From Paraburkholderia caballeronis (lineage in GTDB: Bacteria; Pseudomonadota; Gammaproteobacteria; Burkholderiales; Burkholderiaceae), in the NCBI RefSeq assembly GCF_900104845.1, contig NZ_FNSR01000002.1, positions 248,001 to 312,000 of the forward strand: a DNA stretch of 64,000 nt. The letters are read 5' to 3'. How positions within the stretch are numbered: position 1 is the first letter of the stretch; each line of letters starts with the position of its first letter. Under the pieces are notes generated by a model. That model did no database searches, was not told the DNA's origin, and was given only the letters and a program-made list of their open reading frames with translations. The translations under genes were made by a program, and so were the position numbers. Shown here piece by piece: positions 5,222-39,558 of this stretch.

Positions 5222-5309
5222 GGCTGCCTCTCCGTGGCATGGGTGGCGCATCGGTCAGGCGACGTTCCCGCTCGTGGCAGGCGTCGCGTCAACGGTTTCG
5301 CGCGCGGCA

Positions 5310-9354: not shown

Positions 9355-9464
9355 TTGCCATCCTTCTCGGGTATTGGGGCTCGCGCCCCGGATTGAGCAA
9401 GCAGGAAACGGGATCAGCGCCAAAGCGCAGGCGGGTCGACGCGAAAAGCGCGGCCCGCGTTCGC

Positions 9465-11771: not shown

Positions 11772-12277
11772 CGCCGGACTCCGGCTCGCCGTGGCGGGAT
11801 ATCCGACTTCAGCGCTGCGAACCGACGACGGAATGCACGTTGCCACGCCATGAACTTCACTCCGGAGACAATTTTTCCAGCGACGCCAGCCGGCCTCCGT
11901 TGCTTTGCGCGCGGCGGCCGGCGTCGTCATTCCGTGAATTTCGCGGCCCGCCGTCATTCAGCGGGCATCGCATTGATACCCATTCATACCGTATCGCCCT
12001 GCATTATCGGCGCACGGTGCATTTTCTTTAATTTAATCTATTCGCATCGTTTTACAGTGACACGAAATATTCGCAAAGCGGGCGAATATGGCGTGTTAGC
12101 CGTGGAGTATTCCACACGCGCCGATCGTCCGTTTTGCTGAACGGCGGCAAGCGTTTTACACGGCTTTTATCCAACCCAATTAATGGGATTTCCCGATTAT
12201 CGGGAATACCACGGCAATCGAAGTTTTTGCCATGCCGATGCCGACGTCGATGCCAACGGCAGGCCGCCCCGCGCGCC
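11772..12277. other. Intergenic region, 506 bp, AT-richer than neighbours
   Basis: This region lies between the sigma-54 activator start and the FecR stop. It contains AT-rich stretches around 12020-12120, unusual for this window, which probably hold the activator's promoter, although I could not settle on one -35/-10 pair. A perfect small dyad (TTCCCGA-TTA-TCGGGAA) lies at 12190-12206, about 70 bases after the fecR-like stop, and may be a weak hairpin or an operator. No credible gene was seen. Confidence 0.5.
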
Positions 12278-13252
12278 CTACCGGCGCGAAGCGATCACGA
12301 CCGTGCCGTCCTGCCTGCGCGACACGACCACCGGCGCGACGTGAGGCAGCATGTCGAGCAGCCGGTCCGGGTCCGCGCTCGAAAAACTGCCGGTGATCCG
12401 CGGCTCGCCGGCGCGCGGATCGGCGAGGACGATCGGCTTCGAACGATAACGCTGAAGATCCCTGACGACTTCGGACAGCGGCGTGCCGTTGAACTGGAAA
12501 CGCTGGTCCTTCCAGCTCACCAGGTCGTCGAACGACGACGGATCGACACGGGTGATCGTGTCGCCATCGACCTTGAGCGCCTGGCTCGCATCGAGACGCA
12601 CCGACGCCGGATTGCCGGCCCGGGTGACTTCGACGCTGCCTTCGAGAACCGCGACGCTGACGCGGTCGTCGTCCAGCCGGTGCACGCTGAAGCGCGTGCC
12701 GAGATCGCGGATGTCGGTGGTCCCGGCGGACACGCGAAACGGACGCCACGGGCTATGCGTGACGGAGAACAGCGCCTCGCCGGATTCGAGCGTCCATTCA
12801 CGCGAACGCAGCCGGTTGACGAAACGGCCGGCGGTGTTCGTGTTCAACAGGACTTCGCTGCCGTCGTCCAGATAGACCGTGCGCTGCTGCCCGATCTCGG
12901 ACGAGACTTCCTGCCGGGACAACGCGGGATTGATCGCCCACAGCGCCGACGCCGCCACGGCGAGCGCCAGCAGACTGGTCTGCAACGAGCGGCGCCACGG
13001 GATGGCCCGCACCGGTTCAGGCTTCGCCGCGACATCGGAAGCGCGGACGTAGCGCATCTGCAGGCCGGACAGGTTCCGGTCCAGCGCGCGGTCCGCGGCT
13101 TCGAGTTTCTGCAGGTAGGCCTGGTGCTCGCGGCTCCGGCTGGCCCACTCGTTCAGTTCGGCCCTGGCCGATGCCCTCTGCGCCGTGTCACCGAACTGCA
13201 TGGACACGAGAAGGCTTTCGGCATGGTCCTGCTCTGAAGGGCTTAGAGGCAT
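12278..13252 (-). CDS. FecR-type anti-sigma / sigma regulator
   Basis: A 324-residue protein with the FecR layout: a cytoplasmic N-terminal domain with LNEWASRSREHQAYLQKLEAAD (about 30-52), one membrane segment (SLLALAVAASALWAI near 92-107), then a periplasmic FecR domain with the typical TVYLDDGSEVLLNTNTA and RDLGTRFSVH stretches and a short secretin-like C-terminus. FecR proteins sense the N-terminal signalling domain of a TonB-dependent receptor in the periplasm and control the partner ECF sigma factor. The gene follows the sigma factor by 46 bases on the same strand. The only receptor in the window with a visible signalling (STN) domain is the one at 22949-25267. Confidence 0.92.
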   Translation of the reverse strand: MPLSPSEQDHAESLLVSMQFGDTAQRASARAELNEWASRSREHQAYLQKLEAADRALDRNLSGLQMRYVRASDVAAKPEPVRAIPWRRSLQTSLLALAVAASALWAINPALSRQEVSSEIGQQRTVYLDDGSEVLLNTNTAGRFVNRLRSREWTLESGEALFSVTHSPWRPFRVSAGTTDIRDLGTRFSVHRLDDDRVSVAVLEGSVEVTRAGNPASVRLDASQALKVDGDTITRVDPSSFDDLVSWKDQRFQFNGTPLSEVVRDLQRYRSKPIVLADPRAGEPRITGSFSSADPDRLLDMLPHVAPVVVSRRQDGTVVIASRR

Positions 13253-13298: not shown

Positions 13299-13799
13299 TT
13301 ACGACTGCGTCACCTCCCGGCATGCGCGCATCGCCTGCATCAGATACTTGTGCACGACGGCGGCGCTGACGCCCATCTCCGCAGCGGCCTCTTCATAGGA
13401 TAGCCCACGGAGCTTGCACAGGACAAACGCTTCCCGGCAACGCGGCGCCAGTCCGTCCAGGACGTCGCACAGCTTCATGAGTAGCTGACGGCTCACGGCT
13501 TGCTGCTCCGGATCTATCTCGTAGTGGCCGTATTCGTCGGGCTCCTCGTCGGCTTCGCCTGAAGCATGAAACGACTCCCACAACACGAGCGAACGCCGGC
13601 GCAACTGGTCGACGCGAAGGCCGCGCGCGATGCTGAACAGCAAGCCGCGCGGCGACTGCACTTCATGGGTCTGCGCGTAGACCAGCGCCCGTTCGAACGA
13701 CGACTGCGCCACGTCCTTCGCATCGTCCACGTTAAGCTCGCGTGACAAGGTGCGCAGCAGTTCCCGATAACCGTTCACCAACTCATCGACGAAATTCAT
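13299..13799 (-). CDS. FecI-type ECF RNA polymerase sigma factor
   Basis: A 166-residue ECF sigma factor. Region 2 shows DDAKDVAQSSFERALVYA and GLLFSIARGLRVDQLRRR; region 4 shows LAPRCREAFVLCKLRGLSYEEAAAEMGVSAAVVHKYL, the FecI subfamily pattern including the HKYL ending. It should direct RNA polymerase to promoters of a TonB-dependent uptake system when its partner FecR protein is triggered. I chose ATG 13799; a GTG two codons earlier is also possible, and GGAG lies 10 or 4 bases upstream respectively. It pairs with the FecR gene 46 bases downstream. Unusually the matching receptor is not directly behind FecR. Confidence 0.93.
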   Translation of the reverse strand: MNFVDELVNGYRELLRTLSRELNVDDAKDVAQSSFERALVYAQTHEVQSPRGLLFSIARGLRVDQLRRRSLVLWESFHASGEADEEPDEYGHYEIDPEQQAVSRQLLMKLCDVLDGLAPRCREAFVLCKLRGLSYEEAAAEMGVSAAVVHKYLMQAMRACREVTQS

Positions 13800-14782
13800 T
13801 ATCACACGACTCCAGACACGGGCGACGCGCCTTCATGCAGGCGGTATTCTTTTTTGGACCCCGCGGACCGCGAGGACGATGGCGCGAAAGCGGCACTGCG
13901 TGTCCGTCTGCGCGACGGCTCTCCTTGCGGAGCCTTTCGGGCCGGCTATCGTGCCCCGGCCGGAACCGGATGCAAACGAATATCGCGTCACGACCAGAGC
14001 AGCGAGATCACGTTTGCGCCGGCTGCGCAGGCGTCCGCGGCCGGCGCGCGCTTAACGCGGCGCGGCGGCACGGACAGGTATTGCAGGAGCCCCTGTTCAG
14101 CGAATCCGCCGTGTTATTGCCCTCGCGGCGGGATTCATTTCGTTCGGAGCGAAGTGCGGAACGACGCTTCCATTTCCATTACAGCAACACCCATGCCAGG
14201 TTGCGTCGATCCCTCGGGTCGCGGGCAATGGCGTGGGTCGGCGACACCGCTGACAAGAGGCGTTTACCGGCGCGAATGCGCGGAGAAGGCGCGCCGGCAA
14301 GCACCGGCGCGGCTTCGCGTCATGTCACGGACAGGCGGGTCATTCGATGTGTCCGGCAAACGTCGTGCGCTTGCCGCGACCGGCCTGTTTCGACGGCTGC
14401 ACTGTGATGCGGCAAACGGCGATCGCCGGGCCGGCAGCCGCACCAACGAGAGGCAATGCGGCGTCGCGAAGGGGTGACTAAGCATCGTGAAGATGCCTGC
14501 ATACAGGCACTCGATGACGTCGGGCGCGATCCCTCGCGCACAACGGCGTGGAATCCTCAACGAATCGGGAAGGACGACTTGGCTCGCGGGGAGCCGCCGT
14601 TGACCGGAGATGACGCGCGGGTCGTATCGATGCCGCGCGCGAACGCGCGACGAGCGGAACGATTGTTTTCGATGATCGCGATTCCGCGTTGTCAACGCTC
14701 ATGGAAACCGGGCGATTCGAAGCGGCGATAGCGCGGCTCGCCGTCCGTCAACCGGCAAACCGCGCAATCGACCTCACGCGTC
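13800..14782. other. Long non-coding stretch (about 980 bp) between TldE and FecI-type genes
   Basis: No convincing gene is visible on either strand. Short open frames of 140-220 codons exist in several frames at once, but they are arginine-rich, lack ribosome binding sites and show no motif. Base composition is less GC-biased than in the flanking genes and there is no third-position pattern. It may be the decayed remains of a gene, or an unusually long leader and promoter region for the sigma factor gene. No terminator hairpin with a T tract was seen after tldE. Confidence 0.5.
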
Positions 14783-16159
14783 TCAACGGCCCGCGATCGT
14801 CATCTGCTCGATCAGCACCGAACCCGTTTCATGGCTTCCGCGCACGATCGTATCGGCGCCGATCGCGACGATCTGCCGGAACATGTCCTGCAACGTGCTC
14901 GCGACCGTGATCCCCTCGACCGGATACTGGATCGCGCCGTTCTCCACCCAGAAGCCGGCCGCGCCGCACGAATAATCGCCGGTCACGAAATTGACGCCGT
15001 GCCCCATCAGTTCCGTCAGCAGCAGGCCGGTGCCCATCCGCTTCAACATCGCGTCGAAGTCGTCGTCGCCGCGCGTGATCGAACTGCGCAACGCGAGGTT
15101 GTGCGCGCCGCCGGCGTTGCCGGTGCTCCGCATGCCGAGCTTGCGCGCCGTATAACTCGACAGGAAATAACCTTCGACGATGCCGTCCTGCACGACGTGA
15201 CGCGCGCGCGTGCGCACGCCCTCGCGGTCGAACGGCGCGCTGCCCGGCGCGCGCGGGATGTGCGGGTCCTCGACGATCTGCACGTGCGGCGCGAATACCG
15301 GCTTGCCGAGGCTGTCGACGAGGAACGACGCGTGGCGATACAGCAAACCGCCGCTCGCTGCCTGAACGAACGCGCCGAGCAGATTGCCCGCGAGCGCCGC
15401 CTCGAACAGCACCGGCGCGTTGCGGGTGTCGAGGCCGCGCGCGCCGAGACGCGCCAATGCCCGCTCGGCCGCGCGGCGGCCGACCGACTCCGGCGACGCG
15501 AGATCGTCCGCGCTGCGCTGCGCGCTGTACCAGTGGCCGCCCTGCATGTCGAGACCGCTGCCCGCGATCGGCGTGCAGGCGATGGCGTTGCGCGAATCCG
15601 GATAACCGCCGACAAAACCGTGCGACGTGGCAAGCACGAATTGCCGCTGTTGCGCGGATACGTTCGCGCCGTCCGAATTGCGGATCTCCGCGCCGGCCGC
15701 GAACGCGGCCTCCTCCGCGCGGCGCGCGATCTCCACCGCGTCGTCGGCGGACAGCGGCCACGGGTGGTACAGGTCCAGGTCGCGCGGTGCGGTTTCGAGC
15801 AGTTCGACGTCGGCGAGGCCGGCCGCGTCGTCCACGCTCGTGAAGCGCGCGATGTTGCAGGCGGCCGCGACCGCGTCCTTCAGCGACGCGGACGAAAAAT
15901 CCGACGTGCTGGCCGTGCCGCGCTGCTGGCCGATGAAGACCGTGACGTCGAGCTGCTTGTCGCGGTTCTGCTCGATCGTCTCGACTTCGCCGCGCCGCAC
16001 CGAGACCGACAGGCCATCGGATTCGGAGATTTCCGCGTATGCGTCGGTCGCGCCCAATGCGCGCGCATGCCGGAGCATGTCGGAAGCGATGTCCTGCAAC
16101 TGGTCCAGCGCATAGATGAAACGACGCGCGTGCGCGTCGAGGTTGATAGCCGTTGTCAT
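14783..16159 (-). CDS. pmbA: TldE/PmbA-family metalloprotease subunit
   Basis: A 458-residue protein of the TldD/PmbA (U62) family, the partner subunit without the zinc motif. Family features include ATDAYAEISESDGLSVSVRRGEVETIEQ near 40-65, the central SSYTARKLGMRSTGNAGGAHNL and the C-terminal TGDYSCGAAGFWVENGAIQYPVEGITVA. TldE forms a heterodimer with TldD; in Escherichia coli the complex trims the leader of microcin B17 and degrades CcdA. It follows tldD by 106 bases on the same strand, the last gene of the TonB-linked operon. The ATG at 16159 starts directly before the conserved domain. The TldD-TldE pair in one operon supports an active heterodimer here rather than an orphan homologue. 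Confidence 0.92.
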   Translation of the reverse strand: MTTAINLDAHARRFIYALDQLQDIASDMLRHARALGATDAYAEISESDGLSVSVRRGEVETIEQNRDKQLDVTVFIGQQRGTASTSDFSSASLKDAVAAACNIARFTSVDDAAGLADVELLETAPRDLDLYHPWPLSADDAVEIARRAEEAAFAAGAEIRNSDGANVSAQQRQFVLATSHGFVGGYPDSRNAIACTPIAGSGLDMQGGHWYSAQRSADDLASPESVGRRAAERALARLGARGLDTRNAPVLFEAALAGNLLGAFVQAASGGLLYRHASFLVDSLGKPVFAPHVQIVEDPHIPRAPGSAPFDREGVRTRARHVVQDGIVEGYFLSSYTARKLGMRSTGNAGGAHNLALRSSITRGDDDFDAMLKRMGTGLLLTELMGHGVNFVTGDYSCGAAGFWVENGAIQYPVEGITVASTLQDMFRQIVAIGADTIVRGSHETGSVLIEQMTIAGR

Positions 16160-16265
16160 GGTGTCCGTTCGCGGGCCGTTCGCCCGCGTGTCGCAAGTTG
16201 GAAAAGCGGCGGCGCGCGCGTTGCCGACTTCACCGCAGACGCGAACGCGCACGCCCGCCGACGCG

Positions 16266-17735
16266 TCAGCGCGTGCCGCCGACCGTCATCTGATCGATCC
16301 GCAGCGTCGGCTGGCCGAGTCCCACCGGCACGCTCTGCCCGAGTTTTCCGCATACGCCCACGCCGCGATCGAGCGCCATGTCGTTGCCGATCATGCTCAC
16401 GTACTTCAGCGCCTGCGGACCGCTGCCGATCAGCGTCGCGCCCTTCACCGGATACGTGATCCGGCCGTCCTCGATCAGGTACGCCTCGGACGCGGAGAAC
16501 ACGAAATTGCCGGTCGTGATGTCGACCTGGCCGCCGCCGAATTTCGCCGCGTACAACCCGTGCTGCACCGACTCGACGATCTCGCGCGGGTCCTTGTCGC
16601 CGTTCAGCATGTACGTGTTGGTCATGCGCGGCATCGGCAGCGTGGCATACGATTCGCGCCGCGCATTGCCCGTCACCGGCACGTTCAGCAGGCGCGCGCT
16701 CAACGTGTCGTGCAGGTAGCCGGTCAGGATGCCGTCCTCGATCAGCGTCGTGCATTGGGTCGGATTGCCTTCGTCGTCGATGCCGAGCGAGCCGCGATGT
16801 TCCGGCAGCGTGCCGTCGTCGACCACCGTCACGCCCGCCGCCGCGACCCGCTCGCCGAGCCGTCCCGCGAACGCCGACGAGCCCTTGCGGATCGCGTCGC
16901 CCTCCAGGCCGTGGCCGACCGCTTCGTGCAGCAGCACGCCGGGCAGGCCCGGCCCGAGGACGACCGTCATCGCGCCGGCCGGCGCGGGCCGCGCGTCGAG
17001 GTTGGTCAGCGCGACGTGGACCGCTTCGTCGACATAACCCGCGAGCACGTCGTCGCTGAAGCGGCCGTAGTCGAAGCGGCCGCCGCCGCCGCCCGCGCCC
17101 TCGCCGCGGCGGCCGTCCTGCGCGGCGATCACCATCACGGACAGCCGCACCATCGGACGCACGTCGGCCGCGATCACGCCGTCGCTGCGCGCGACCAGCA
17201 TCACGTCGTACGTGCCCGCAAGGCTCGCCATCACCTGCTGGATGCGCGGATCGCGACTGCGCGCCATCTGCTCGACGCGCGTCAGGATCTCGACCTTCGC
17301 GGCCGCGTCGAGCGACGCGAGCGGATCGACGCCCCGGTACAGGTCGCGGCCCGCCACGGGCCTGAACGCCGACGCGGGCCGGACCTTCTGCGCGCCGCCG
17401 CCGGCTTTCGCGATCGCCGTGGTCGCCGCGGCGGCCTGGCGGATCGCCGCGAGCGTCAGGTCGTCGGAATACGCGAACGCCGTGCGGTCGCCCGACACCG
17501 CGCGCACGCCGACGCCCTGGTCGATGCTGAAGCGGCCCGACTGCACGATGCCGTTTTCGAGAGTCCACGCTTCGTTGCGGGTGAACTGGAAATAAAGGTC
17601 GGCGTAGTCGCAGTCGCGAGCGGCGAAGACGCCGGCCAGCAAGCCGCCAAGCACGGTTTCGTCGTGACCGTACGGCGCAAGCAGGATATCGGTCGCGACG
17701 GCCAGGTGTCCGAGGCCGGGTTCGATGAGGTTCAT
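16266..17735 (-). CDS. tldD: TldD-family zinc metalloprotease
   Basis: A 489-residue TldD. The zinc motif HEAVGH (270-275, in LLHEAVGHGLEGD) is intact, and the C-terminal strands NPTQCTTLIEDGILTGYLHDTLSARLL and TNTYMLNGDKDPREIVESV match TldD closely. With TldE it forms a barrel-shaped protease that accepts unfolded peptides. A Gly-rich insertion (GEGAGGGGGRFDYG, about 211-224) is visible. It lies 59 bases after the thioredoxin-fold gene. Housekeeping TldD genes usually stand apart from TonB systems; presence in this operon suggests it processes an imported peptide or protein, which is my inference. Confidence 0.94.
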   Translation of the reverse strand: MNLIEPGLGHLAVATDILLAPYGHDETVLGGLLAGVFAARDCDYADLYFQFTRNEAWTLENGIVQSGRFSIDQGVGVRAVSGDRTAFAYSDDLTLAAIRQAAAATTAIAKAGGGAQKVRPASAFRPVAGRDLYRGVDPLASLDAAAKVEILTRVEQMARSRDPRIQQVMASLAGTYDVMLVARSDGVIAADVRPMVRLSVMVIAAQDGRRGEGAGGGGGRFDYGRFSDDVLAGYVDEAVHVALTNLDARPAPAGAMTVVLGPGLPGVLLHEAVGHGLEGDAIRKGSSAFAGRLGERVAAAGVTVVDDGTLPEHRGSLGIDDEGNPTQCTTLIEDGILTGYLHDTLSARLLNVPVTGNARRESYATLPMPRMTNTYMLNGDKDPREIVESVQHGLYAAKFGGGQVDITTGNFVFSASEAYLIEDGRITYPVKGATLIGSGPQALKYVSMIGNDMALDRGVGVCGKLGQSVPVGLGQPTLRIDQMTVGGTR

Positions 17736-17794
17736 GGCGGAAAGGTAAGAGTGATAGACAGGGATAAACGGCGCGGAAACGCGTTCACCCCGCT

Positions 17795-19132
17795 TCAACC
17801 GGCGGCGACGATCTTCGGCGCGCACGCGCACAGCGCGAAGAACTGCGCGCGCACCGCGTCGCCGAGCCACCGGCATTCGTCTCGTTGCGCGCGCTCCCAT
17901 CCGTCGATGCGCGCCTGCAACTCCGGATGCGTATCGCGAATGGACAGCCGCACCTGCTCCTCGATCGCATTGCGTTTGGCGCGCCACTGCGCGAGCGCGT
18001 CGGCGTCGTCGTCCGACGGCTCCTCGCCGAGCGACGACGACAACGCCTGCCACGTCGCTTCGTAGACGGCCTGCTTCTGCTGGTGATCCTCCACGGTCCA
18101 CTTGCCCGCGTCCATCGCGGCGGACATCCCGAACGAATACAGCAGCAACAGCAGATTCGGCAGGTCGCTGTCCACGAGCGGCAAGACCTTGTCCTCGACC
18201 ATCTTGACGAACCGCAGATCGGCCAACGTCGGACGCAACGCGTCCTGATCCTGATCCGTGTGCTGCGGCGGCGCGTCGGGACGCGCCGCCCATTCGCCGG
18301 CCGCGACGAACTCGCGTTGCAGCGCCAACCACTCCGCGTCCGGCACGCGCTCGCCGTTCAGCTCCCGTCGATGCAGCGCGGCGAGCCGGTCGCACAGCGC
18401 GCGCGCGAAGGCGGTCGCTGCGTAGCGCCGGATGCCGACCACCGGGTCGTGCAGCAGCCAGTTCATCATCACCTGCGACAGCCGCTGCAGGTCGATGCCG
18501 ACCGGCAGCGCGTCCACCAGCGCGACGAACCCGTCGTCGGCCTGCGCGCTCGTCGCCGGGTCGTCGCGAAGCCAGTCCCACAACACCGTGAACATCTTGC
18601 CGAGCACCACCGGACCGCCGATGGTGTCGGCAAACCCGCCGGTTTCCGTCTCCACGCTGTTCGCGGGCAGATGGTCGTCGTCGAACACCGCGTCGCGCAG
18701 ACGGCGCAGCAGATCGGCCTTGCGCGCCGGGTCGCCGCCGAAGCTCGGCACGACCGCGACGGCCGGCAGCGCCGGCGCGTCGGCCGCGGCATCGCTGCCG
18801 GCATGCGTTCCGACCAGATCGTCGAACAGCGCCCTGATCGCCGCCTGCGAGTGGCTGACCTGCGCATGCTTCACTTCGCCGTGGCTGAACAGCATCAGCC
18901 GCGGAATGCTACGGACGTTCATGCGCGCCGCGACTTCGGGGTTCTCGTCGACGTTCAGCTTGACGATCCGGACCCGGCCGTCGTACAGCGCGGCCAGCCG
19001 TTCCATCGTGGGATTGAGCGCGAGGCAGGGGCTGCACCACGGCGCCCAGAAGTCGAGCAGAACCGGAGATCCGGCTTGCAGCACGTCCTGCTCGAACGTC
19101 GCGTCGGTGGTGTCGGTAATCAACAGGCTCAT
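17795..19132 (-). CDS. Thioredoxin-fold protein with large uncharacterised C-terminal domain
   Basis: A 445-residue protein. Residues 1-115 form a thioredoxin domain with WCSPC at 32-36 (Ser in place of the usual Gly of WCGPC) and the cis-proline loop VRSIPRLMLF near 73-82. The remaining 330 residues are helical, begin after an Ala/Pro-rich linker and match nothing I recognise. No signal peptide is visible, so it should act in the cytoplasm, reducing disulfides. It sits between the ABC transporter (22 bases before) and tldD (59 bases after). A sensible role would be to open disulfides of an imported polypeptide before proteolysis, but that is inference from context. An ordinary thioredoxin is only about 110 residues. 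Confidence 0.85.
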   Translation of the reverse strand: MSLLITDTTDATFEQDVLQAGSPVLLDFWAPWCSPCLALNPTMERLAALYDGRVRIVKLNVDENPEVAARMNVRSIPRLMLFSHGEVKHAQVSHSQAAIRALFDDLVGTHAGSDAAADAPALPAVAVVPSFGGDPARKADLLRRLRDAVFDDDHLPANSVETETGGFADTIGGPVVLGKMFTVLWDWLRDDPATSAQADDGFVALVDALPVGIDLQRLSQVMMNWLLHDPVVGIRRYAATAFARALCDRLAALHRRELNGERVPDAEWLALQREFVAAGEWAARPDAPPQHTDQDQDALRPTLADLRFVKMVEDKVLPLVDSDLPNLLLLLYSFGMSAAMDAGKWTVEDHQQKQAVYEATWQALSSSLGEEPSDDDADALAQWRAKRNAIEEQVRLSIRDTHPELQARIDGWERAQRDECRWLGDAVRAQFFALCACAPKIVAAG

Positions 19133-19154
19133 GGTCAATGTATTTCTTTCGGTT

Positions 19155-20957
19155 TCAGTTGAGGGGAACAGCGACGGCGGGCTGCGCGGAACCGTTCCGG
19201 GCGGACCTGCCGTCGTGCACGTGCAATACATGGGTATGGAATACGTCCAGCGCCGGATGGTGCGAGACGCTGAACAGCGTCGTGTCCGGCAGCCGCTCGA
19301 TCAGCAACGCGTACAGATGAAGCTCGGTCTCCGCGTCGAGCGCGCTCGTCGATTCGTCCATCAACAGGTAGTCGGGCCGTTGCAGCAAAACGCGCGCGAT
19401 CGCGAGACGCTGCTGCTCGCCGGGCGACATCCGGTGGCCCCACGGCGCGTGTTCGTCGAGCTGGCCGCAGTAGTGCGCGAGCTGGCAGGCCATCAGCGCG
19501 TCGCGGCACTGCGCATCGGAGAACGCGTCGTCGCCCGACGGATAGCTCAATGCGGCCCTGAGACTGCCCGGCGGCAGATAGTTCTTCTGCGACAGGAACA
19601 GCAGACTCGCGCCGTCCGGAATCCTGACCGTGCCGCTGCCATACGGCCAGATGCCGGCGAGCGCGCGCACCAGCGTGCTCTTGCCGGTGCCCGACGGACC
19701 GCGCACCAGCCAGCGTTCACCCGGCGCCAGCGTGAACGAAAGATCGCGGGCCAGCGTGCGTCCGGCGGGCGTCGTCAGCGTGAGGCCCGTGACGGTCAGC
19801 CCGCGCCCGGCCGTCGCCGCGTGCGCGATTCCTTCGCCGTCCGTCGCATGGCCGGCGGTCCCGGCGGTGCCCGTAGCGGCGGTCGCGCGATCCAGCCCGT
19901 CGAGGCGCGCGACGATGACGCGGAAGTTCTGCAACGCCTGGTAGTTCGTGATGAACCACGACAGCGTCAGCACCAGCGTCGAGAACGCCGACGCCATCAT
20001 CGCCATGTCGCCGAGCGTCACGGCATGCGACAGATAACGCGGCAGCACCGCGAACGTCGGCACGAACACGGCGATGTGCATCAGCACGGTGTTCAGCGGA
20101 AAGAACCGCAGGTTGAAGAACGCGATCTGCCACGAGTTGCGCCACACGGCGTCGAAACCGCGCCGCAGCCGGCGGCTTTCGGTCGGCGCGCCGCCGTACA
20201 GCGCGATCTGCTCCGCGTATTCGCGCACGCCGGTCATCATGAAGCGGCAGTCGGCCTCGGCCCGCTCCTTCGCGAAGTTGAGCCGCATCATCGGCCGTCC
20301 GACCCAGTGGACGAGGCACGAAGTCGCGAACGCGTACAGCAGCGCGACCCAGAACATGTAGCCCGGGACCACGATGGTCCAGCCGAGCACCGTGAAATCG
20401 GCCGGCCCCGACTTGCTCCACAGGATCGACGAGAAGCTGACGAAGCTCACCACCGCGCCGACGAGCCCGATGCTCAGGCTGTAGCTGTGCGACACGAAAT
20501 GATCGACGTCCTGCGAGATGCGCTGATCGGGGTTGTCGACCAGCTGATCGCGCTCGATCCGGTAGAACGCGCCGTTCGACAGCCAGCGGTCGATCAGGCG
20601 TTCGGTGAGCCAGCGTCGCCAGCCGATTTCCAGCGTCGACCGCGACAGGTTCTCCAGCACGGTGGACAGCGCGATGCCGACCATCACCGCGGCCAGTTCG
20701 AGCCCGAGCGAAGGCATCACGGCGGCGTTGTACGCCTGAACCGCGTCCATGAACCGCCCGTGCCAAGCGTTGAGTTCGACCAGCAACTGGTTGCTGACGA
20801 ACGTCAGGCCGATGCACACGGCCAGCAGCGACAGCGCCGGCCACCTGAATCTCGAAGCGAGGATCGGAAAGGCGAGACGCCCGGCCGCGCGCAGCGTGCC
20901 GCCGGGCGGCACGATCGACGACGCGGAAAGTGGGGAAGATGGCTTCACGGATTGCAC
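19155..20957 (-). CDS. ABC transporter, fused permease-ATPase of YddA/SbmA-like type
   Basis: A 600-residue half transporter of the ABC_membrane_2 class. Five or six membrane segments occupy about 30-330, with LVDNPDQRISQDVDHFV in the coupling region, typical of YddA and peroxisomal ABCD proteins. The ATPase domain has Walker A GPSGTGKST near 420, signature MSPGEQQR and Walker B DYLLMDEST. In the Fus and Ydd systems a transporter of this type (FusD, YddA) is encoded beside a TonB-dependent receptor and a protease, and may return peptides or carry them inward. The start is uncertain: GTG 20957, 11 bases after exbD, or GTG 20948; neither has a good ribosome binding site. It is the fifth gene of the operon. 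Confidence 0.88.
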   Translation of the reverse strand: MQSVKPSSPLSASSIVPPGGTLRAAGRLAFPILASRFRWPALSLLAVCIGLTFVSNQLLVELNAWHGRFMDAVQAYNAAVMPSLGLELAAVMVGIALSTVLENLSRSTLEIGWRRWLTERLIDRWLSNGAFYRIERDQLVDNPDQRISQDVDHFVSHSYSLSIGLVGAVVSFVSFSSILWSKSGPADFTVLGWTIVVPGYMFWVALLYAFATSCLVHWVGRPMMRLNFAKERAEADCRFMMTGVREYAEQIALYGGAPTESRRLRRGFDAVWRNSWQIAFFNLRFFPLNTVLMHIAVFVPTFAVLPRYLSHAVTLGDMAMMASAFSTLVLTLSWFITNYQALQNFRVIVARLDGLDRATAATGTAGTAGHATDGEGIAHAATAGRGLTVTGLTLTTPAGRTLARDLSFTLAPGERWLVRGPSGTGKSTLVRALAGIWPYGSGTVRIPDGASLLFLSQKNYLPPGSLRAALSYPSGDDAFSDAQCRDALMACQLAHYCGQLDEHAPWGHRMSPGEQQRLAIARVLLQRPDYLLMDESTSALDAETELHLYALLIERLPDTTLFSVSHHPALDVFHTHVLHVHDGRSARNGSAQPAVAVPLN

Positions 20958-20968
20958 GCGGGATTCGG

Positions 20969-21376
20969 TCAGGACTTCGGCGACGTGATGAAGTTGATGT
21001 TGGTGAGCCCCGCGCGCTGCGCCGCCGCCAGCAACGTCGCGACCGCCTCGTAGCGGGTCGCGCGGTCGGCGTACAACTGCAACGCCGGCTGCGGCTGCTG
21101 GCCGGCCGCGGCCGCCAGCTTCGCGGCCAGCGCGGCCTCGTCGACCGGCTGCGCGTTCCACATCACCACGCCGCCCGCGTCCACCGACAGCTCGATGCGC
21201 TGCGGCTGGCTCTCGCTCGGCGCGCTGTCCGCGCGCGGCAGCTCCAGCTTCACGGTGTTCGTGATCGCCGGCAGCGTCACCATGAAGACGATCAGCAGCA
21301 CCAGCATCACGTCGATCAGCGGCGTCATGTTGATCTCGGTAATCATGTCGTCCTGCTCGTTGAACGAAGCCGCCAT
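20969..21376 (-). CDS. exbD: ExbD, TonB energy-transducing subunit
   Basis: A 135-residue ExbD/TolR protein with one membrane helix near the N-terminus containing the proton-carrying aspartate in the motif ITEINMTPLIDVMLVLLIVFMV (Asp near 22), followed by a periplasmic domain (LELPRADSAPSES to NINFITSPKS). With ExbB it converts the proton gradient into motion of TonB. It begins one base after exbB ends, so the pair is translationally coupled, and the ABC transporter gene follows. Length is normal for the family. Confidence 0.96.
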   Translation of the reverse strand: MAASFNEQDDMITEINMTPLIDVMLVLLIVFMVTLPAITNTVKLELPRADSAPSESQPQRIELSVDAGGVVMWNAQPVDEAALAAKLAAAAGQQPQPALQLYADRATRYEAVATLLAAAQRAGLTNINFITSPKS

Positions 21377-21377
21377 C

Positions 21378-22106
21378 TCACACCTCCTGCTGGACGAGGA
21401 TCGACGTCACGGTGATCGACGAGCGGTCGATGTTCGTGCCCATGCTCGGACGGCCGCGCTCGCCGCGCATGAAGAACGAATGCAGCTCGTGCCTGAAGCG
21501 GTGCAGCTTGTGCGCGACGCCGCGATGGTTGCGCGCGATCGTGTTGTAGCCGAGCACCGCCGGAATCGCGACGAACAGCCCGAACGCGGTCATCACCAGC
21601 GATTCGCCGACCGGACCCGCGACCTGCGACAGGCTCGACTGCCCCGCCGCGCTGATCCCGACCAGCGCGTGGTAGATCCCCCAGACGGTGCCGAACAGCC
21701 CGATGAACGGCGACGTGCTGCCGATCGACGCGAGCACGCCGAGGCCGCCCGCGAGCCGCGCGAGATGGTCGTCGAGCGCGATGCCGAGGCAGCGGTGCAG
21801 CCATTCGTCGGGCGCGAGCATGTCGTCCGAGCGGGCGCTGCGATACGCCCCGTGCGCGGCTTCGACCAGATCGAGATGCGGATTGCCCGGTCCGGCGCGG
21901 CCGAGCGACGCCTGCGCGTCGGCGAGCGAACCGGCCAGCCAGAAGTTGCGTTCGGCGGCCGTCGTGCGCCGCTTCAGGCGGATCAGCTCGGCCCCCTTGT
22001 AGAAGATGACGCCCCATGACAGCACCGACATGAGGATGAGCAGCAACATGATGGCGCGCGTGATGGCGTCGCCCTGTTGCCAGACGGCATTCAGTCCGAA
22101 TTGCAT
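21378..22106 (-). CDS. exbB: ExbB, TonB energy-transducing subunit
   Basis: A 242-residue MotA/TolQ/ExbB-family channel protein with three membrane segments: AIMLLLILMSVLSWGVIFYK at about 18-37, then two in the C-terminal half including LGVLASIGSTSPFIGLFGTVWGIYHALVGI and GESLVMTAFGLFVAIPAVLGYN, which are the family's most conserved regions. It forms the pentameric pore that drives TonB. The C-terminal tail (RGRPSMGTNIDRSS) is longer than average. It lies 28 bases after tonB. Confidence 0.96.
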   Translation of the reverse strand: MQFGLNAVWQQGDAITRAIMLLLILMSVLSWGVIFYKGAELIRLKRRTTAAERNFWLAGSLADAQASLGRAGPGNPHLDLVEAAHGAYRSARSDDMLAPDEWLHRCLGIALDDHLARLAGGLGVLASIGSTSPFIGLFGTVWGIYHALVGISAAGQSSLSQVAGPVGESLVMTAFGLFVAIPAVLGYNTIARNHRGVAHKLHRFRHELHSFFMRGERGRPSMGTNIDRSSITVTSILVQQEV

Positions 22107-22134
22107 GACGAGGTTCTCCTGAAAGGCGGGGAAA

Positions 22135-22941
22135 TCAGTGGGTCAGATTGAAGGTCAGCGGCTGGACGGCGCGCACGCTGGCCGGCCGGCCGTTGTCGAG
22201 ATACGGCTCGCACTGGCCGGCGCGCAGCGTCTGCACGGCGGCGGCATCGAGTTCGGGGAAACCGCTGCTGGTGTCCACGTCGACCTGGGACGGCTTGCCG
22301 GCGGCGTCGATCGTGACGCGCAGCGTCACCGTGCCTTCGTGATGCAGCCGGCGCGCCACCGACGGATAAGGCGGCTGGCCGAAATGGCAGACGATGCGGG
22401 CCACGTCCTTCACCGCCTGCGACCCCGGCAGATCGAGTTCGCGGCTGGCCGCGGCCGGCGCGCTCTGCGCGGCGGCCGCCGAGGTCGTCGCGGCTGCGGG
22501 CGTCGCCGGCGCGGACGGTTCGGCCACCGCATCGGGAGCCGGCGTCGTGTCGGGTGCCGGCTCGACGTTCACGCGGTGCTGCGACTGCGACCGGTCCGAA
22601 GCCAGCACCGGCGCGCGGCGCGGCGCGGCGTGCCGCGGCGTCAGCGGTTTGGCGACTGGCTTCGGCTCGACGGGTTTCGGCTCGACGGGCGCGGGCGTTG
22701 GGGTCGGCGCGGGCGCCGAAATCAGCGTGACCTGCACGCTCGTTCCCGACGCCGGGCGGCCGGCGGCTTCCGTCGTCAAGGTCGGCGTGTAGCGCACGAG
22801 CGTCAGCAGCGCGAGGCCGTGCAGCAGCAGCGCGAGCGCAATCGCGGTGCCGAGACCGAAACGCATCCGGATCGATGGCCGGATCGCGCGGCCGGTCAAC
22901 GGACGCGACTGCCACGGCAGGCGGGACGACAATGGCTCCAT
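22135..22941 (-). CDS. tonB: TonB energy transducer
   Basis: A 268-residue TonB. One membrane anchor (LGTAIALALLLHGLALLTLV, about 29-48) carries the conserved His of the SHLS-type region, followed by a Pro/Lys-rich spacer (PAPVEPKPVEPKPVAKP) that spans the periplasm, an Ala-rich linker and a C-terminal TonB domain (QPPYPSVARRLHHEGTVTLRVTIDAAGKPSQVDVDTSSG, cut here to its ends). It should contact the TonB box of the receptor encoded 7 bases upstream. Its inclusion in the same operon as one receptor suggests a dedicated transducer, as FusB is in Pectobacterium. Confidence 0.95.
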   Translation of the reverse strand: MEPLSSRLPWQSRPLTGRAIRPSIRMRFGLGTAIALALLLHGLALLTLVRYTPTLTTEAAGRPASGTSVQVTLISAPAPTPTPAPVEPKPVEPKPVAKPLTPRHAAPRRAPVLASDRSQSQHRVNVEPAPDTTPAPDAVAEPSAPATPAAATTSAAAAQSAPAAASRELDLPGSQAVKDVARIVCHFGQPPYPSVARRLHHEGTVTLRVTIDAAGKPSQVDVDTSSGFPELDAAAVQTLRAGQCEPYLDNGRPASVRAVQPLTFNLTH

Positions 22942-22948
22942 GGGCGCC

Positions 22949-25267
22949 TCAGAAATCGTAGACCGCGGTGAGGTAGATCAGCCGACCCGGCAGGACTTCC
23001 ACCAGCGACGTCGCGTAGTCGCCGTACAGCGTCCGGTTCAGCAGGTTCTTCACGCCGAGCGTCGCGCTCCAGTTCCTCGCGTGGTAATAAACGCTCGCGT
23101 CGACGCGGGCCTGGCCGGGTATCGAATGCTCGTTGCCGTCGATGTCGTAGGACACGTAACTGGACCGCGCCAGCACGCCCGCGCCGACGCCCCACCCGTG
23201 CAGCGCCTCGCCCGGCAGGTCGTAGGTCGTCCACAGGCTGACGGCGTGTTTCGGCAACTGGCTGAAGCTGTTCGTCGCGGTCGGCGGCTGATTGCTGTAC
23301 GTGTAGCTCGCGATGACGTTCCAGCCCGGCATCAGGCGTCCGGCGACGTCCGCCTCGATGCCCCGGCTGATGATCCCGGTCGACAGAAACGAAAACCCCG
23401 GATGCAGCGGATCGCCCATCGGCACGTTGTACTGCGCCGCGCGAAACACGGAGACCGAGCCGGTCAGGCGATCGTCGAGCAGATTCAGCTTGACGCCGGC
23501 CTCCACCGAACGGCCGGTGGACGGCGGCGCGCCCGCGCCGCCCACCAGCAGCACGTTGTTCTGCGGCTTGAAGCTGCGCAGCGCGTTCGCGTAGAGCCCG
23601 ACCGTGTCGGTGAGCTGGTACACGACCCCGAGGTTCGGCGACCACGCGCTCTGCGACGCCATCGTGTTGGACCACGCCTGGCCGCGGCTCACGCTCGCGA
23701 GCACGTTGAGCCGCCCCCACCTCAGCTGGTCCTGGAAATACAGGATGTTCTGGAAGTTGTGCTGGTCCGACGACAGCGACGGCGCCGGCGTCGTCGCCAC
23801 TTCGTTCAGCGGCGGCATGCCCGACTGCGGGAACGTCCCGAACGTCATGCCGCCCGAACTTCCGCGCGCCGTAAACCACGACACCGAATAAGCCACGCCC
23901 GCCAGCAGCGTATGGTTGATCGGGCCGGTGTTGAATTTCGCCTGCAGGTTGTTGTCGAGATCGAACGACCGCCCGCGGAATTCGTCCTGATAGCCGACGT
24001 AGATCGCCAGCGGGTCCGAGCCGGGCATCGCGATCGGGATGGCCGAATAGGCGTCGTACGTGCTCTTCTCCGCGTAGTAGCGGGCCTTGCTCTGAAACGT
24101 CAGCGCGGGCGTCAGCTTCTGCTTCAGGTCGTAATAGACGGACGTGCTGTTCACGGACAGATGGTCGTCCGCGCGGCCGGATAATGCCGTGAGCGGCGCG
24201 GGGCCGTCCGCCAGCGCGAAGGTCCACGCGGGCGGCGCCTGCCGGGCCGTGTGCTGCTCGAATCCGACCACCAGGTCGGTGCCGCCGCTGCGCCAGCCGA
24301 CCGACGGCGCGAGATAAAAATCGCGCTTGCCGTCGTGGCCGGTGAAGTCCTGCCCCGCCCGCTGTCCCGACACCACGAAACGATAGGTGAGCTTCTTGTC
24401 GTCGGTGACCGCGCCGGCCAGATCGAGCGCGGCCATGTAGTCGCCGTACGAGCCGACCTGCACGGTCGTTTCGCGAACCCGTTCCGCCTGCGGACGCTTG
24501 AGGTTCACGTTGACGATGCCGGCCGGGTCCGCCGCGCCGGCCAGAATCGCGCTCGCGCCTTTCAGCACCTCGACGCTTGCGAGCGCAACTGTCGGCAGCG
24601 CGAGCGCGGAGTCCGCCATCGAACCGAGGCCCATCCCGCCGTTGAGCGTGACGGACGCCGACATGCCGCGGATCGTCGGCGTGCCGCCGATCGACGTCGA
24701 GCCGGAATTCGAGATCGTGACGCTGCTGACGTTGCGCAGCACGTCGCCGACCGACTGGGCCTGCTGGCTCGTGATGACGTCCTGGGTCACGACCTGCACC
24801 GACTGCGGAATCTCCGACAGCGGCGTGTCGGTGCGCGTGGCCGTCGACGTGGACTCCGCGATGAAACCGCGCGTCGGCTCCGCCGCGCTGTCGGTCACCG
24901 TGATGGTCGGCAACACGCTGGGCGCGGCATTCGCGCCCGGCTCCTTGCGCGGCGGCGGCGACGTCTCGATCACGAAGGTCCGCGGATCCTGCTGGCGGGC
25001 CGTCAGCCCGCTGCCCAACAACAGGTGATCGAGCGCCTGCGGCACCGTCAACGCGCCGGACACCGCCGGCGCGCTGCGGCCGGCGACGAGGCCGTCCGGC
25101 GCGAGAATATCGACGCCGCGTTCCCGCGCAAGCTGGGACAACGCTGTCGACAACGGCTGCGCCGGCAGGTTGATCGCCGTCTGCGCGAACAGCCCGGCGC
25201 TCGCCGTGCTCGCGGCCACCCACACGACGCGGCATGCGAGCGTCTTCTGACTCCATCCGAAAAACAT
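22949..25267 (-). CDS. TonB-dependent outer membrane receptor with STN signalling domain
   Basis: A 772-residue receptor. A signal peptide (about 1-28, ending GLFAQ) precedes an STN domain (TAINLPAQPLSTALSQLARERGVDIL to DPRTFVIE), then a plug with TDTPLSEIPQSVQVVTQDVI and a 22-strand barrel ending in YLTAVYDF with terminal Phe. The STN domain links it to FecR-type signalling, so the FecI/FecR pair at 12278-13799 may respond to it. It is annotated by sequence type as a siderophore-type receptor, but its operon partners (TonB-ExbBD, YddA-like ABC, TldD/E) resemble protein-import systems, so the ligand is open. The ATG at 25267 has AGAAGG 9 bases upstream. It heads the operon. Confidence 0.93.
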   Translation of the reverse strand: MFFGWSQKTLACRVVWVAASTASAGLFAQTAINLPAQPLSTALSQLARERGVDILAPDGLVAGRSAPAVSGALTVPQALDHLLLGSGLTARQQDPRTFVIETSPPPRKEPGANAAPSVLPTITVTDSAAEPTRGFIAESTSTATRTDTPLSEIPQSVQVVTQDVITSQQAQSVGDVLRNVSSVTISNSGSTSIGGTPTIRGMSASVTLNGGMGLGSMADSALALPTVALASVEVLKGASAILAGAADPAGIVNVNLKRPQAERVRETTVQVGSYGDYMAALDLAGAVTDDKKLTYRFVVSGQRAGQDFTGHDGKRDFYLAPSVGWRSGGTDLVVGFEQHTARQAPPAWTFALADGPAPLTALSGRADDHLSVNSTSVYYDLKQKLTPALTFQSKARYYAEKSTYDAYSAIPIAMPGSDPLAIYVGYQDEFRGRSFDLDNNLQAKFNTGPINHTLLAGVAYSVSWFTARGSSGGMTFGTFPQSGMPPLNEVATTPAPSLSSDQHNFQNILYFQDQLRWGRLNVLASVSRGQAWSNTMASQSAWSPNLGVVYQLTDTVGLYANALRSFKPQNNVLLVGGAGAPPSTGRSVEAGVKLNLLDDRLTGSVSVFRAAQYNVPMGDPLHPGFSFLSTGIISRGIEADVAGRLMPGWNVIASYTYSNQPPTATNSFSQLPKHAVSLWTTYDLPGEALHGWGVGAGVLARSSYVSYDIDGNEHSIPGQARVDASVYYHARNWSATLGVKNLLNRTLYGDYATSLVEVLPGRLIYLTAVYDF

Positions 25268-25754: not shown

Positions 25755-26987
25755 ATGAAAAAGCCACTGTTGGCTGGCGCAGCCATGGCTGGAATGATGA
25801 CGACGCCGGTATTCGCGCAAAGCAGCGTGACGCTGTATGGGCTCATCGATCAGGGCGTGAACTACGTCAGCAACGTCCAGACGGGACGAAGCGGCGCGGG
25901 AGCGTTGCAAGGCCAGCATCAGATCGCGCTGTCGGACGGCGCAACCGGCATCGGCGGCAGCCGCTGGGGGCTGAAGGGCAGCGAGGACCTCGGCGGCGGC
26001 CTGCGCGCGATCTTCACGCTCGAAAACGGCTTCAACATCAACACCGGCGGACTGGCGCAAGGCGGCCTGCTGTTCGGGCGGCAGGCGTTCGTCGGGCTCG
26101 CGAATCCGTACGGGCAACTGACGTTCGGGCGGCAGTACAGCATCGTCAGCGACATGCTCGCGCCGCTGTCTCAGGCCGGCGAGATTCCCGGCCACATGGG
26201 CGCGAATCCGGACGACCTCGACGACCTCGGCCACTCGATCCGGATCAACAACAGCATCAAGTTCAGAAGCACGTCATACGGCGGCTTCGTGTTCGGCGCG
26301 ATGTATTCGCTCGGCGGCGTCGCGGGCGCGACGGGACGCAACCAGTTGTGGGCGCTGAGCGGCACGTACGCGAACGGGCCGCTGTCCGCAGGGGTCGGCT
26401 ACCTGAATGCGCGCAACCCGAACCTGTCGTACTTCGGCACGAACGGCAACTCAGGCGGCGACACGGTGAACAACATGGGATCGGCCGGTTCGGCCACGGC
26501 CGGCCAGACCAATACGCTGTATGCGGGGTTTGCGTCCGCGCGCTCGATGCAACTCGCCGTCGCCGGCGCGAAGTACAAATTCGGCGCGGCGACGATCGGC
26601 GCGACCGTTTCGCATCTGAGCTTCGACGATCTCGGCGACGCGACCTCCGGCCCGAATCCGCTGCACTACAGCGGCACCGCCGTGTTCAACAACGGCGAAG
26701 TCAACGCGACCTGGGCGTTCACGTCCGCCTTCAGCGTGAACGCGGCGTACAGCTATACGCGCAAGGCGAGTGTCGGCCAGTACGGATCGGCAACCTATCA
26801 CCAGGGCGAACTGTCGGCCGCGTATTTCCTGTCGAAGCGCACCGAACTGTATGCGCTCGCGATCTACCAGCAGGCGAGCGGCACCGACTCGCTGGGCCAG
26901 TCGGCGGTTGCGTCGATCACGCAGTTGACCGCGTCGTCGACCAACAAGCAGGCGCTCGTCAGGCTCGGCATCCTGCATCTGTTCTGA
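25755..26987 (+). CDS. Gram-negative porin (Burkholderiales trimeric type)
   Basis: A 410-residue outer membrane porin. The signal peptide is residues 1-22 (KKPLLAGAAMAGMMTTPVFAQ) and the mature protein begins with SSVTLYGLIDQGVNYV, the standard start of this family. Internal family motifs include GSRWGLKGSEDLGGGLRAIFTLENGF and LFGRQAFVGL, and the protein ends KQALVRLGILHLF with the C-terminal Phe needed for outer membrane assembly. It probably admits the aromatic or other acid degraded by the neighbouring operon. GGAGACAAG precedes the start. A GntR-type operator overlaps its promoter, and a hairpin terminator follows. Confidence 0.95.
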   Translation: MKKPLLAGAAMAGMMTTPVFAQSSVTLYGLIDQGVNYVSNVQTGRSGAGALQGQHQIALSDGATGIGGSRWGLKGSEDLGGGLRAIFTLENGFNINTGGLAQGGLLFGRQAFVGLANPYGQLTFGRQYSIVSDMLAPLSQAGEIPGHMGANPDDLDDLGHSIRINNSIKFRSTSYGGFVFGAMYSLGGVAGATGRNQLWALSGTYANGPLSAGVGYLNARNPNLSYFGTNGNSGGDTVNNMGSAGSATAGQTNTLYAGFASARSMQLAVAGAKYKFGAATIGATVSHLSFDDLGDATSGPNPLHYSGTAVFNNGEVNATWAFTSAFSVNAAYSYTRKASVGQYGSATYHQGELSAAYFLSKRTELYALAIYQQASGTDSLGQSAVASITQLTASSTNKQALVRLGILHLF

Positions 26988-27961: not shown

Positions 27962-28426
27962 TCAGCCGGCGACGGTCCAGTGAAGCAGGCTGTATGGCCT
28001 CGGCGCGTCGCCGTGATGCTCGAAGACGCCGCGCACCGAAGCGCCGATCTCGACCGGCTGCGCGGGGTCGCCGAGCAGGTTGCCGATCATCCGCACGTTG
28101 CCCGCATGCGGCAGTTCGACGAGCACGACGAGGTACGGCGTCGCGTTCGCGAGAACCGGATGCGACGGATGCCACACGCGTTCCCAACTGTAGATGCGGC
28201 CGGACGGCTCGACGTCGTGCCAGGCCGGATCGAACGCATGGCACCCGTGACAGATCCATTCGGGGCCGAACTGCCACGTGCCGCAATGAGCGCACCGCTG
28301 CACGCGCAGCCGCGATTCGCGCAGTCCGTCCCAGTACGGCGCGGACAGTCCGTCCGGCTCGGGCGCCGGCGCCGGCAGGCCTTCGGGCAGATAGAACGTC
28401 GTAGTGGATGCAGGGGATGAAGTCAT
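27962..28426 (-). CDS. DUF35 OB-fold/zinc-ribbon acyl-CoA-binding protein
   Basis: A 154-residue protein with a zinc ribbon (Cys45, Cys48, Cys59, Cys62 in CAHCGTWQFGPEWICHGC) followed by an OB-fold (SGRIYSWERVWHPSHPVLANATPYLVVLVEL). Such DUF35 proteins partner thiolase-like enzymes; the best known case is the ChsH2-type domain with the Ltp2 retro-aldolase in steroid side-chain breakdown, where DUF35 closes the active site around acyl-CoA. Its start overlaps the stop of the thiolase-like gene by four bases, so the two are made together. It is the last gene of the Rieske operon before the GntR gene. Confidence 0.9.
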   Translation of the reverse strand: MTSSPASTTTFYLPEGLPAPAPEPDGLSAPYWDGLRESRLRVQRCAHCGTWQFGPEWICHGCHAFDPAWHDVEPSGRIYSWERVWHPSHPVLANATPYLVVLVELPHAGNVRMIGNLLGDPAQPVEIGASVRGVFEHHGDAPRPYSLLHWTVAG

Positions 28427-30908: not shown

Positions 30909-30976
30909 CAATGCTCCTTGGCGGCGCGAGCGCGGATGCCGCGCGCCCTGGTTGGGATCGTGAGAGTCGGGAGAGT

Positions 30977-31939: not shown

Positions 31940-31961
31940 GACAGGGTCTTCCGTTTCTCGT

Positions 31962-39550: not shown

Positions 39551-39558
39551 GGCAACGG

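Follow-up and report, generated by a model that had tools for sequence, protein, structure and literature searches.

A recurrent operon of Paraburkholderia caballeronis with a TonB-dependent receptor, an SbmA/BacA-domain transporter, a thioredoxin and TldD/TldE: a candidate route for import and digestion of disulfide-bonded peptides

What could an outer-membrane receptor, its energizing proteins, a transporter, a thioredoxin, and the TldD/TldE protease be doing in one operon? Here we analyzed a 64,000-nucleotide window of the Paraburkholderia caballeronis genome (7.1 Mb in three contigs; the window is C2:248001-312000), in which eight minus-strand genes (25267..14783) encode a TonB-dependent receptor, TonB, ExbB, ExbD, an ATP-binding cassette (ABC) transporter, a thioredoxin (Trx) with an added C-terminal domain (CTD), TldD, and TldE. 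A preliminary description of the stretch had reported eight genes on one strand with gaps of 1 to about 106 bases. Pfam and NCBIfam bear out their contents, and the intergenic gaps are 7, 28, 1, 11, 22, 59, and 106 bases. FecI and FecR genes follow tldE on that strand after a further 977 bases, so the transcription unit likely reaches beyond 14783..25267.

The preliminary description proposed that the receptor, its TonB energizer, the ABC transporter, a disulfide-reducing protein, and the cytoplasmic TldD/E protease could work together in import and digestion, which we find right in outline. We consider it fairly probable that the operon is a peptide import-and-digestion pathway, with induced uptake of a disulfide-bonded peptide followed by reduction, digestion, and cysteine disposal. 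Recurrence of the gene set and the thioredoxin reductase (TrxB), peptidase, and cysteine genes added at a minority of loci support that part of the description; its proposed close kinship with the Fus and YddAB systems was not supported.

An operon that recurs in different gene orders

A receptor, an SbmA/BacA-domain ABC, TldD, and TldE are co-located at 26 loci, the window included; recurrence in other genomes was the test that the preliminary description had set for itself. By family and genus labels, the hosts are Burkholderiaceae, another family of the same class, and two sphingomonads, and at least five gene orders occur. Sixteen of these loci (L numbers; genomes carry G numbers) come from a set of 29 CTD-bearing loci, viewed over about 10 kb on each side. 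The others are the window, the Burkholderia cenocepacia plasmid locus L112, the sphingomonad plasmid loci L104/L106 (Novosphingobium capsulatum) and L111 (Sphingomonas parapaucimobilis), L145, L146, and L147, located via extra TldD copies, and L180, L181, and L182 from the other family of the class. L077 and L078, a partly degenerate tandem pair, were counted as one locus. Outside the count are L103, L108, L109, and L110, with no tldDE in the stretch seen, L105 and L114, near-identical to L040, and L148, with a partial TldD. The 26 loci are not all independent events, TldD being near-identical in L086/L088/L089 and in L092/L112. Gene contents were tabulated in 26 rows, one for L109 and the others for every counted locus except L077/L078, with Pfam and NCBIfam scans of chosen neighbors and the remaining genes labeled by BLASTP against the study's reference proteins. 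L103 itself, on a B. glumae plasmid (NZ_CP052134.1), is an operon copy with a short TonB beside sfnG/msuE sulfur genes, and the Trx-CTD gene is present on many B. glumae plasmids.

The window and L073 share one order (A1): receptor, TonB, ExbB, ExbD, ABC, Trx-CTD, TldD, TldE, FecI, FecR. At L037, L079, and L080 (A2), ExbD is followed by Trx-CTD, TldD, ABC, and TldE. L037 is a full paralogous operon in the same genome, on contig C1, where FecI and FecR come first and are followed by the receptor, TonB, ExbB, ExbD, and the A2 series. Order B, found at 11 loci (L040, L081, L084-L090, L092, and L112), begins with an Lrp/AsnC regulator and continues with receptor, TonB, ExbB, ExbD, ABC, Trx-CTD, TldE, TldD, and a protein of about 145 amino acids. 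The latter (L040:14822-15241 and ten other type-B loci) is conserved and has no Pfam match. L039 runs TonB, ExbB, ExbD, TldE, TldD, receptor, ABC, Trx, Trx-CTD, CTD-like protein. The sphingomonad order is receptor, ABC, TldE, TldD, TrxA, CTD, TrxB, and an M3 peptidase; in Novosphingobium the ABC and TldE genes, like the TldE and TldD genes, have overlapping start and stop codons. At L180, receptor, ABC, Trx-CTD, TldE, TldD, and DUF2891 are divergent from FecI, FecR, TonB, ExbB, and ExbD, and at L181 and L182 the receptor and ABC are divergent from FecI, FecR, TonB, ExbB, ExbD, TldE, and TldD. DUF2891 is found near TldD at five loci (L180:3553-4587 and L147:11899-12921 by Pfam, L084 and L085 by BLASTP, L148 by eye). 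FecI has the same place after TldE at L073; a FecI-like gene is in view at 19 of the 26 tabulated loci and a FecR-like gene at 21. Upstream of the receptor at six loci, no 10-mer was common to three or more.

In the control sets, none of the other components was found near 26 ordinary thioredoxin loci (L011-L036) or near 26 TldD loci outside operons. Among the 28 best-matching same-family ABC loci outside G000 and G642, 25 had no other component and three were true members. Control windows covered about 1.5 kb on each side and member windows about 10 kb, so these comparisons indicate that such neighbors are not general but give no exact probability. The ABC gene was rejected as a marker of the system, having a strong relative in 82 of 398 phylum-wide genomes, most of the inspected ones without such neighbors.

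The CTD proved rare. Its profile matched 22 of the 398 family genomes, G348 only weakly (E 3e-4), and 4 of 399 in an order-wide draw, G000 included; the Novosphingobium CTD was found in 1 of 398 genomes of the phylum. Two protein-cluster searches, each scoring 7,998 candidates, returned 10 and 7 clusters (14 different in all), and a scan of named genomes matched only Paraburkholderia sp. BCC1885. Among the matches listed in a search of 146 genomes with the thioredoxin protein, few extend into the CTD (the second copy in the same genome, and G048, G052, G055, and G057). The TldE of L181, searched in 149 genomes of its family, gave 11 matches, namely itself and ten at 41-43% identity that we take to be ordinary PmbA.

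Components of the operon and added genes

The coordinates and domain matches of the operon and its regulators are collected in Table 1. The ABC carries Walker A, Walker B, and signature motifs; its start codon is GTG, and its start position is uncertain. Its nearest solved structure is 6tqe (E 1.2e-86), which we take to be Rv1819c.

Table 1. Genes of the operon and the adjoining regulators in the window.
Feature	Length (amino acids)	Coordinates	Strand	Domains and matches
TonB-dependent receptor	772	22949..25267	-	STN (36.1 vs cut-off 28.4), Plug, barrel (Pfam); TonB-siderophor subfamily
TonB	268	22135..22941	-	TonB_C
ExbB/TolQ-like	242	21378..22106	-	MotA_ExbB
ExbD/TolR-like	135	20969..21376	-	ExbD
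ABC transporter, fused membrane and ATPase domains	600	19155..20957	-	ABC_membrane_2 (PF06472, 156.7 vs 24.4), SbmA_BacA (PF05992, 68.0 vs 24.0), ABC_tran (PF00005, 68.7 vs 25.0)
Thioredoxin (WCSPC) with new helical CTD	445	17795..19132	-	Thioredoxin (PF00085, 85.6 bits vs 23.5)
TldD metalloprotease, HEAVGH at residue 270	489	16266..17735	-	NF008006 (620.8 vs 513); 5nj5, E 6e-168
TldE/PmbA, without HExxxH	458	14783..16159	-	NF008268 (460.6 vs 438)
FecI-like ECF sigma factor	168	13299..13805	-	Sigma70_r4_2
FecR-like anti-sigma regulator	324	12278..13252	-	FecR, FecR_C

The thioredoxin part is a relative rather than TrxA itself, since it misses the TIGR01068 equivalog cut-off (91.6 vs 96.8). The full-length model matches thioredoxins in Foldseek, and the other rows fit poorly. 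The CTD (residues ~126-445, about 320 in all) has no Pfam match and is predicted to be all-alpha (mean predicted local distance difference test, pLDDT, 78; predicted template modeling score, pTM, 0.73). Against solved structures its best match by sequence had an E of 0.23, and by fold Foldseek gave no convincing match (best E 0.55), with one middling match to DUF416. The CXXC motif is kept in 23 of 30 frames called Trx-CTD or CTD; six frames exclude the motif, being CTD-only or short at the front, and at L038, which has no tldDE in view, the first Cys is lost. Thioredoxin and CTD, fused or adjoining, occur at 22 of the 26 loci, counting a weak CTD match at L180.

In a single case, L109:9669-12476 of G642, the CTD is fused to an S9 prolyl-oligopeptidase in a protein of 935 amino acids. 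The CTD can thus pair with a different peptidase, and the fusion suggests that it binds a peptide or a peptidase. L109, the most informative locus, comprises receptor, ABC, thioredoxin, CTD-S9, a Cds1-like protein, ExbB, two ExbDs, M17, and M24, and no tldDE was found in the stretch examined. A CTD-like protein without thioredoxin follows Trx-CTD at L039 (10553-11749); one also occurs at L093, and at L097 one follows a thioredoxin. L074, L075, and L076 hold orphan Trx-CTD genes near transposase or conjugation genes, and their stretches share more genes, including a NUDIX-methyltransferase and a PhyH protein.

In the window TldD and TldE both exceed their NCBIfam cut-offs, and HExxxH is present in TldD alone. 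Of 18 operonic TldD frames, 17 keep HExxGH; the remaining one is a shortened copy. All 26 genomes searched have a TldD outside the operons, which we take to be the housekeeping copy. In a TldD tree, type-B loci, L039, and L145-L147 form one clade of 15 rows (support 100/99), although the program flagged long branches in that region. Of the type-A TldDs, five (window, L073, L037, L077, and L080) fall among non-operon TldDs, and L079 and L094 are not placed. Between the C1 operon's tldD (L037:9369-10840) and the second tldD of that genome, DNA identity is 98.5%, over the gene alone; for tldE it is only 77%. G465 carries two operonic tldDs that match its other copy at 98.6% and 97.8% identity, along with a shortened one at 96.1%. 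In at least two genomes the operonic tldD appears to have swapped with the cell's own copy or to have been replaced by it, through gene conversion or replacement. This suggests that ordinary TldD activity is wanted in the operon. A similar pattern is seen at L077 and L080.

Further genes join the operon at some loci, in separate lineages. TrxB is present in G213, Novosphingobium, and Sphingomonas, exceeding the TIGR01292 cut-off at L104 and L147 and lying in two pieces at L111. The added peptidases belong to families M3, M1, M24, and M81. M3 occurs in two rows, where two sphingomonads combine it with TrxB. PepN is on the operon strand at L040, L081, L087, and G213; at L037 and L073 pepN is on the opposite strand and may be the ordinary copy. 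M24 is found in G213 and G642 (a 99-amino-acid piece marked M24 at L087 was not counted), M81 at L081, and both M17 and S9 in G642. Cysteine-handling enzymes are in view in six of the 26 rows and in none of the other 20, the window among them. They comprise cysteine dioxygenase at L081 (by Pfam) and at L087 and G213 (by similarity to that of L081), Cds1-like cysteine desulfhydrases at L109 and L111, and an IscS-like enzyme at L040. Several loci combine additions, with PepN and IscS-like at L040, PepN and cysteine dioxygenase at L081 and L087, and TrxB and cysteine dioxygenase at G213. Upstream of the Novosphingobium operon lie a cystathionine-gamma-synthase family protein and an S15 peptidase.

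Elsewhere in the window, a porin (25794-26987) sits beside a minus-strand group of Rieske oxygenase, reductase, CoA-transferase, and thiolase-like genes (28423-33278), possibly an aromatic degradation cluster. On the plus strand (37637-40404), an ABC ATPase gene comes after that of a second TonB-dependent receptor; the pair is apparently unrelated to the operon. Downstream of FecR, the minus strand (2673-5240 and 7376-11957) encodes an M61 glycyl aminopeptidase, an Asp/Glu racemase, an S-Me-THD-like protein, and a sigma-54 activator.

Known systems and competing explanations

Fus of Pectobacterium and YddAB-PqqL of Escherichia coli are likewise clusters in which a protease accompanies a TonB receptor and an ABC_membrane_2-type transporter (PMC6793856 for Fus), and we saw the pqqL-yddB-yddA cluster in E. 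coli. Their protease is a periplasmic M16 enzyme, whereas the operon here has TldD/E, with other peptidases at some loci, all expected to be cytoplasmic. Six receptors of the system (window, L037, L039, L040, Novosphingobium, and G642) gave no BLASTP match to E. coli YddB at E 1e-3. Six ABCs of the system are 25-33% identical to YddA and of the same Pfam family, but the best match is a solved relative, 6tqe. No M16 protease was found among the ten window proteins or the further window neighbors scanned, and at other loci not every neighbor was scanned. With no YddB match and no M16 found, we rejected membership in the Fus/Ydd group, and the close kinship that the preliminary description had drawn is not supported. 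A 2019 survey of Fus clusters reports that other proteases sometimes accompany FusA relatives (PMC6793856), so alternative proteases as such are no novelty. No thioredoxin, such as the operon here contains, is mentioned in the survey's main text.

The ABC shares its Pfam domains with SbmA/BacA, BclA, and Rv1819c-type transporters. Known SbmA/BacA-type examples act as single inner-membrane proteins, while the operon ABC is tied to a receptor, energizer, reductase, and proteases, neighbors lacking from 25 of the 28 relatives inspected. In the main text of a survey of the SbmA/BacA family, TldD is unmentioned and TonB appears once, in the reference list (PMC12003926). Compared with the TldD/TldE of microcin B17 (M103), the genes here are an extra copy within an uptake operon, besides the TldD found elsewhere in the genome. 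An STN receptor, FecI, and FecR are shared with FecIR cell-surface signaling, from which the operon would differ in that the ligand goes on to the cytoplasm and is digested. Lasso-peptide clusters also combine a receptor, FecIR, and a hydrolase for the peptide, an isopeptidase; the hydrolases differ, and the window operon contains no maturation genes. A transcriptome study of Burkholderia terrae confronted with a fungus reported upregulated peptidases, which it compared with microcin B17 processing, and separately a TonB family protein (PMC5209427). We found no description of the operon in the open-license PubMed Central papers searched.

Several other explanations have to be weighed. In one that is compatible with the preferred reading, import, reduction, and digestion would proceed by the same mechanism, and the purpose would be protection by removal of cysteine-rich antimicrobial peptides or bacteriocins. 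Several pathogens and symbionts are described as depending on related SbmA/BacA/BclA transporters for survival in the face of antimicrobial peptides (PMC12003926), and disulfide-rich peptides would need reduction before TldD/E. We nevertheless regard protection as somewhat unlikely, as a high-affinity receptor with its own TonB would raise exposure to the toxin, cysteine disposal and many peptidases look nutritional, and the CTD gene is accessory and rare, as seen in the family survey. A different gain would be metal, if the complex of a peptidic chelator were imported as a siderophore or metallophore, then reduced and hydrolyzed in the cytoplasm, with the peptidases destroying the chelator. 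The receptor passes the siderophore-receptor subfamily TIGR01783 (266.8 vs cut-off 223.5), and its nearest solved chains (3qlb, the enantio-pyochelin receptor; 8b43/6z8a, FoxA; 6i97, CntO) bind, by their names, pyochelin-, ferrioxamine-, or pseudopaline-type ligands. FecI/FecR beside the operon fit as well, but FecIR and TIGR01783-type receptors also serve other ligands. The Pfam-scanned neighbors, far from all of them, included no siderophore synthesis or ferric-siderophore enzyme, an Lrp/AsnC regulator precedes the receptor in type B, and TldD/E, PepN, M17, M24, S9, and the cysteine enzymes fit ordinary peptides. Siderophore uptake is to us a doubtful account.

The operon could also make a modified peptide rather than consume one, with TldD/E cutting the leader, the ABC exporting the product, and the receptor sensing or re-importing it. 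A receptor and FecIR accompany some lasso-peptide loci. Maturation of microcin B17, and of other modified peptides, is carried out by TldD/E (PMC10885120). Such a role is very improbable here, given gaps of at most 106 bases among eight genes of which none encodes a peptide-modifying enzyme (precursor genes were not searched for, nor was the 977-base stretch ahead of FecI inspected for small genes). Transporters of the ABC's group are considered importers, TonB-ExbBD is built in, and aminopeptidases at other loci would destroy the product. That unrelated genes stand together by chance has in its favor the existence of orphan Trx-CTD genes. We rejected this explanation as next to impossible in view of 26 loci, different orders, two operons in one genome, and controls that were empty apart from true members.

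A candidate pathway for disulfide-bonded peptides

The import-and-digestion reading builds on the observed gene content, its recurrence, the domain families, the kept active-site motifs, and the one CTD-S9 fusion, and assigns to each protein the function expected from its sequence family. A peptide ligand would bind the STN receptor and, through FecR/FecI signaling, raise expression, while the dedicated TonB-ExbB-ExbD would power passage across the outer membrane. The SbmA/BacA-domain ABC would then move the still folded, disulfide-bonded peptide into the cytoplasm, where the thioredoxin, recycled by TrxB, would reduce it, with the CTD as a putative peptide-binding or peptidase-linking part. 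The linear peptide would be threaded into TldD/E and cut small, aminopeptidases and oligopeptidases would complete digestion, and freed cysteine would be removed by dioxygenase, desulfhydrase, or desulfurase enzymes, presumably in this order. In the window operon, the cell's own TrxB, further peptidases, and cysteine enzymes would have to be relied on. TldD/E is reported to cut only unfolded peptides, threaded into a narrow channel, independent of sequence, with about 15 residues needed according to modeling (PMC10885120). A disulfide-bonded peptide should not fit, and an adjoining reductase makes sense. The same property makes it unlikely that a protein, which the preliminary description had allowed as a substrate, reaches TldD/E in folded form.

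A number of observations weigh against this pathway. TrxB, extra peptidases, and cysteine enzymes are all missing from the window operon itself, and TrxB and cysteine enzymes are confined to a minority of loci (3/26 and 6/26 rows). The Cds1-like enzymes fall below their cut-off of 600 (518 bits at L109, 542 at L111), as does the IscS-like enzyme of L040 (443.5 bits vs 548). Trx-CTD lacks an intact tldDE nearby at 11 of the 29 CTD-bearing loci (L038, L041, L074, L075, L076, L082, L083, L091, L095, L096, and L097); L091, part of the L147 locus, has tldDE further on, L097 has only a 77-amino-acid TldE piece, and two more loci (L093 and L094) end at contig ends. Conversely, Trx-CTD was not seen at four of the 26 loci (L145, L146, L181, and L182), though these absences are not firm, since the fetched stretches end inside operons. 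The CTD of L180 is a remote relative at most (E about 1e-7 against a set of five sequences), and in G213 the Trx/CTD pair stands about 10 kb ahead of the receptor, separated from it by other genes. The receptor belongs to a siderophore subfamily, and thioredoxin has many other uses. The siderophore-type receptor and FecIR, the only two features that point toward the iron- or cofactor-bearing substrate of the preliminary description, also mean that iron may be involved; the gain to the cell may be nutrition, sulfur, iron, or clearance of toxic peptides.

The pathway has likely not been described so far; we regard it as a novel variant of TonB-linked import that has a substantial chance of forming its own class. 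A broader proposal, which we regard as possible and advance tentatively, is a distinct modular class of uptake machinery that would take disulfide-bonded peptides all the way from the receptor to amino acids. Here a TonB receptor and SbmA-type ABC would deliver the substrate, Trx-CTD would reduce it and hand it to exchangeable peptidases (TldD/E or a CTD-fused S9), and aminopeptidases and cysteine disposal would follow, allowing bacteria to feed on cysteine-rich peptides of fungal, plant, or other bacterial origin. Some peptide antibiotics enter cells via the TonB pathway and SbmA. If the pathway is real, the operon would give the TonB-receptor and SbmA-type transporter families a natural purpose, and could serve as a way in for peptide drugs or as a means of clearing them. 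It would also explain the extra TldD/E copies in some genomes and provide a physiological setting for this widespread, ill-understood protease, with disulfide peptides of roughly 15 residues or more as the predicted substrate class.

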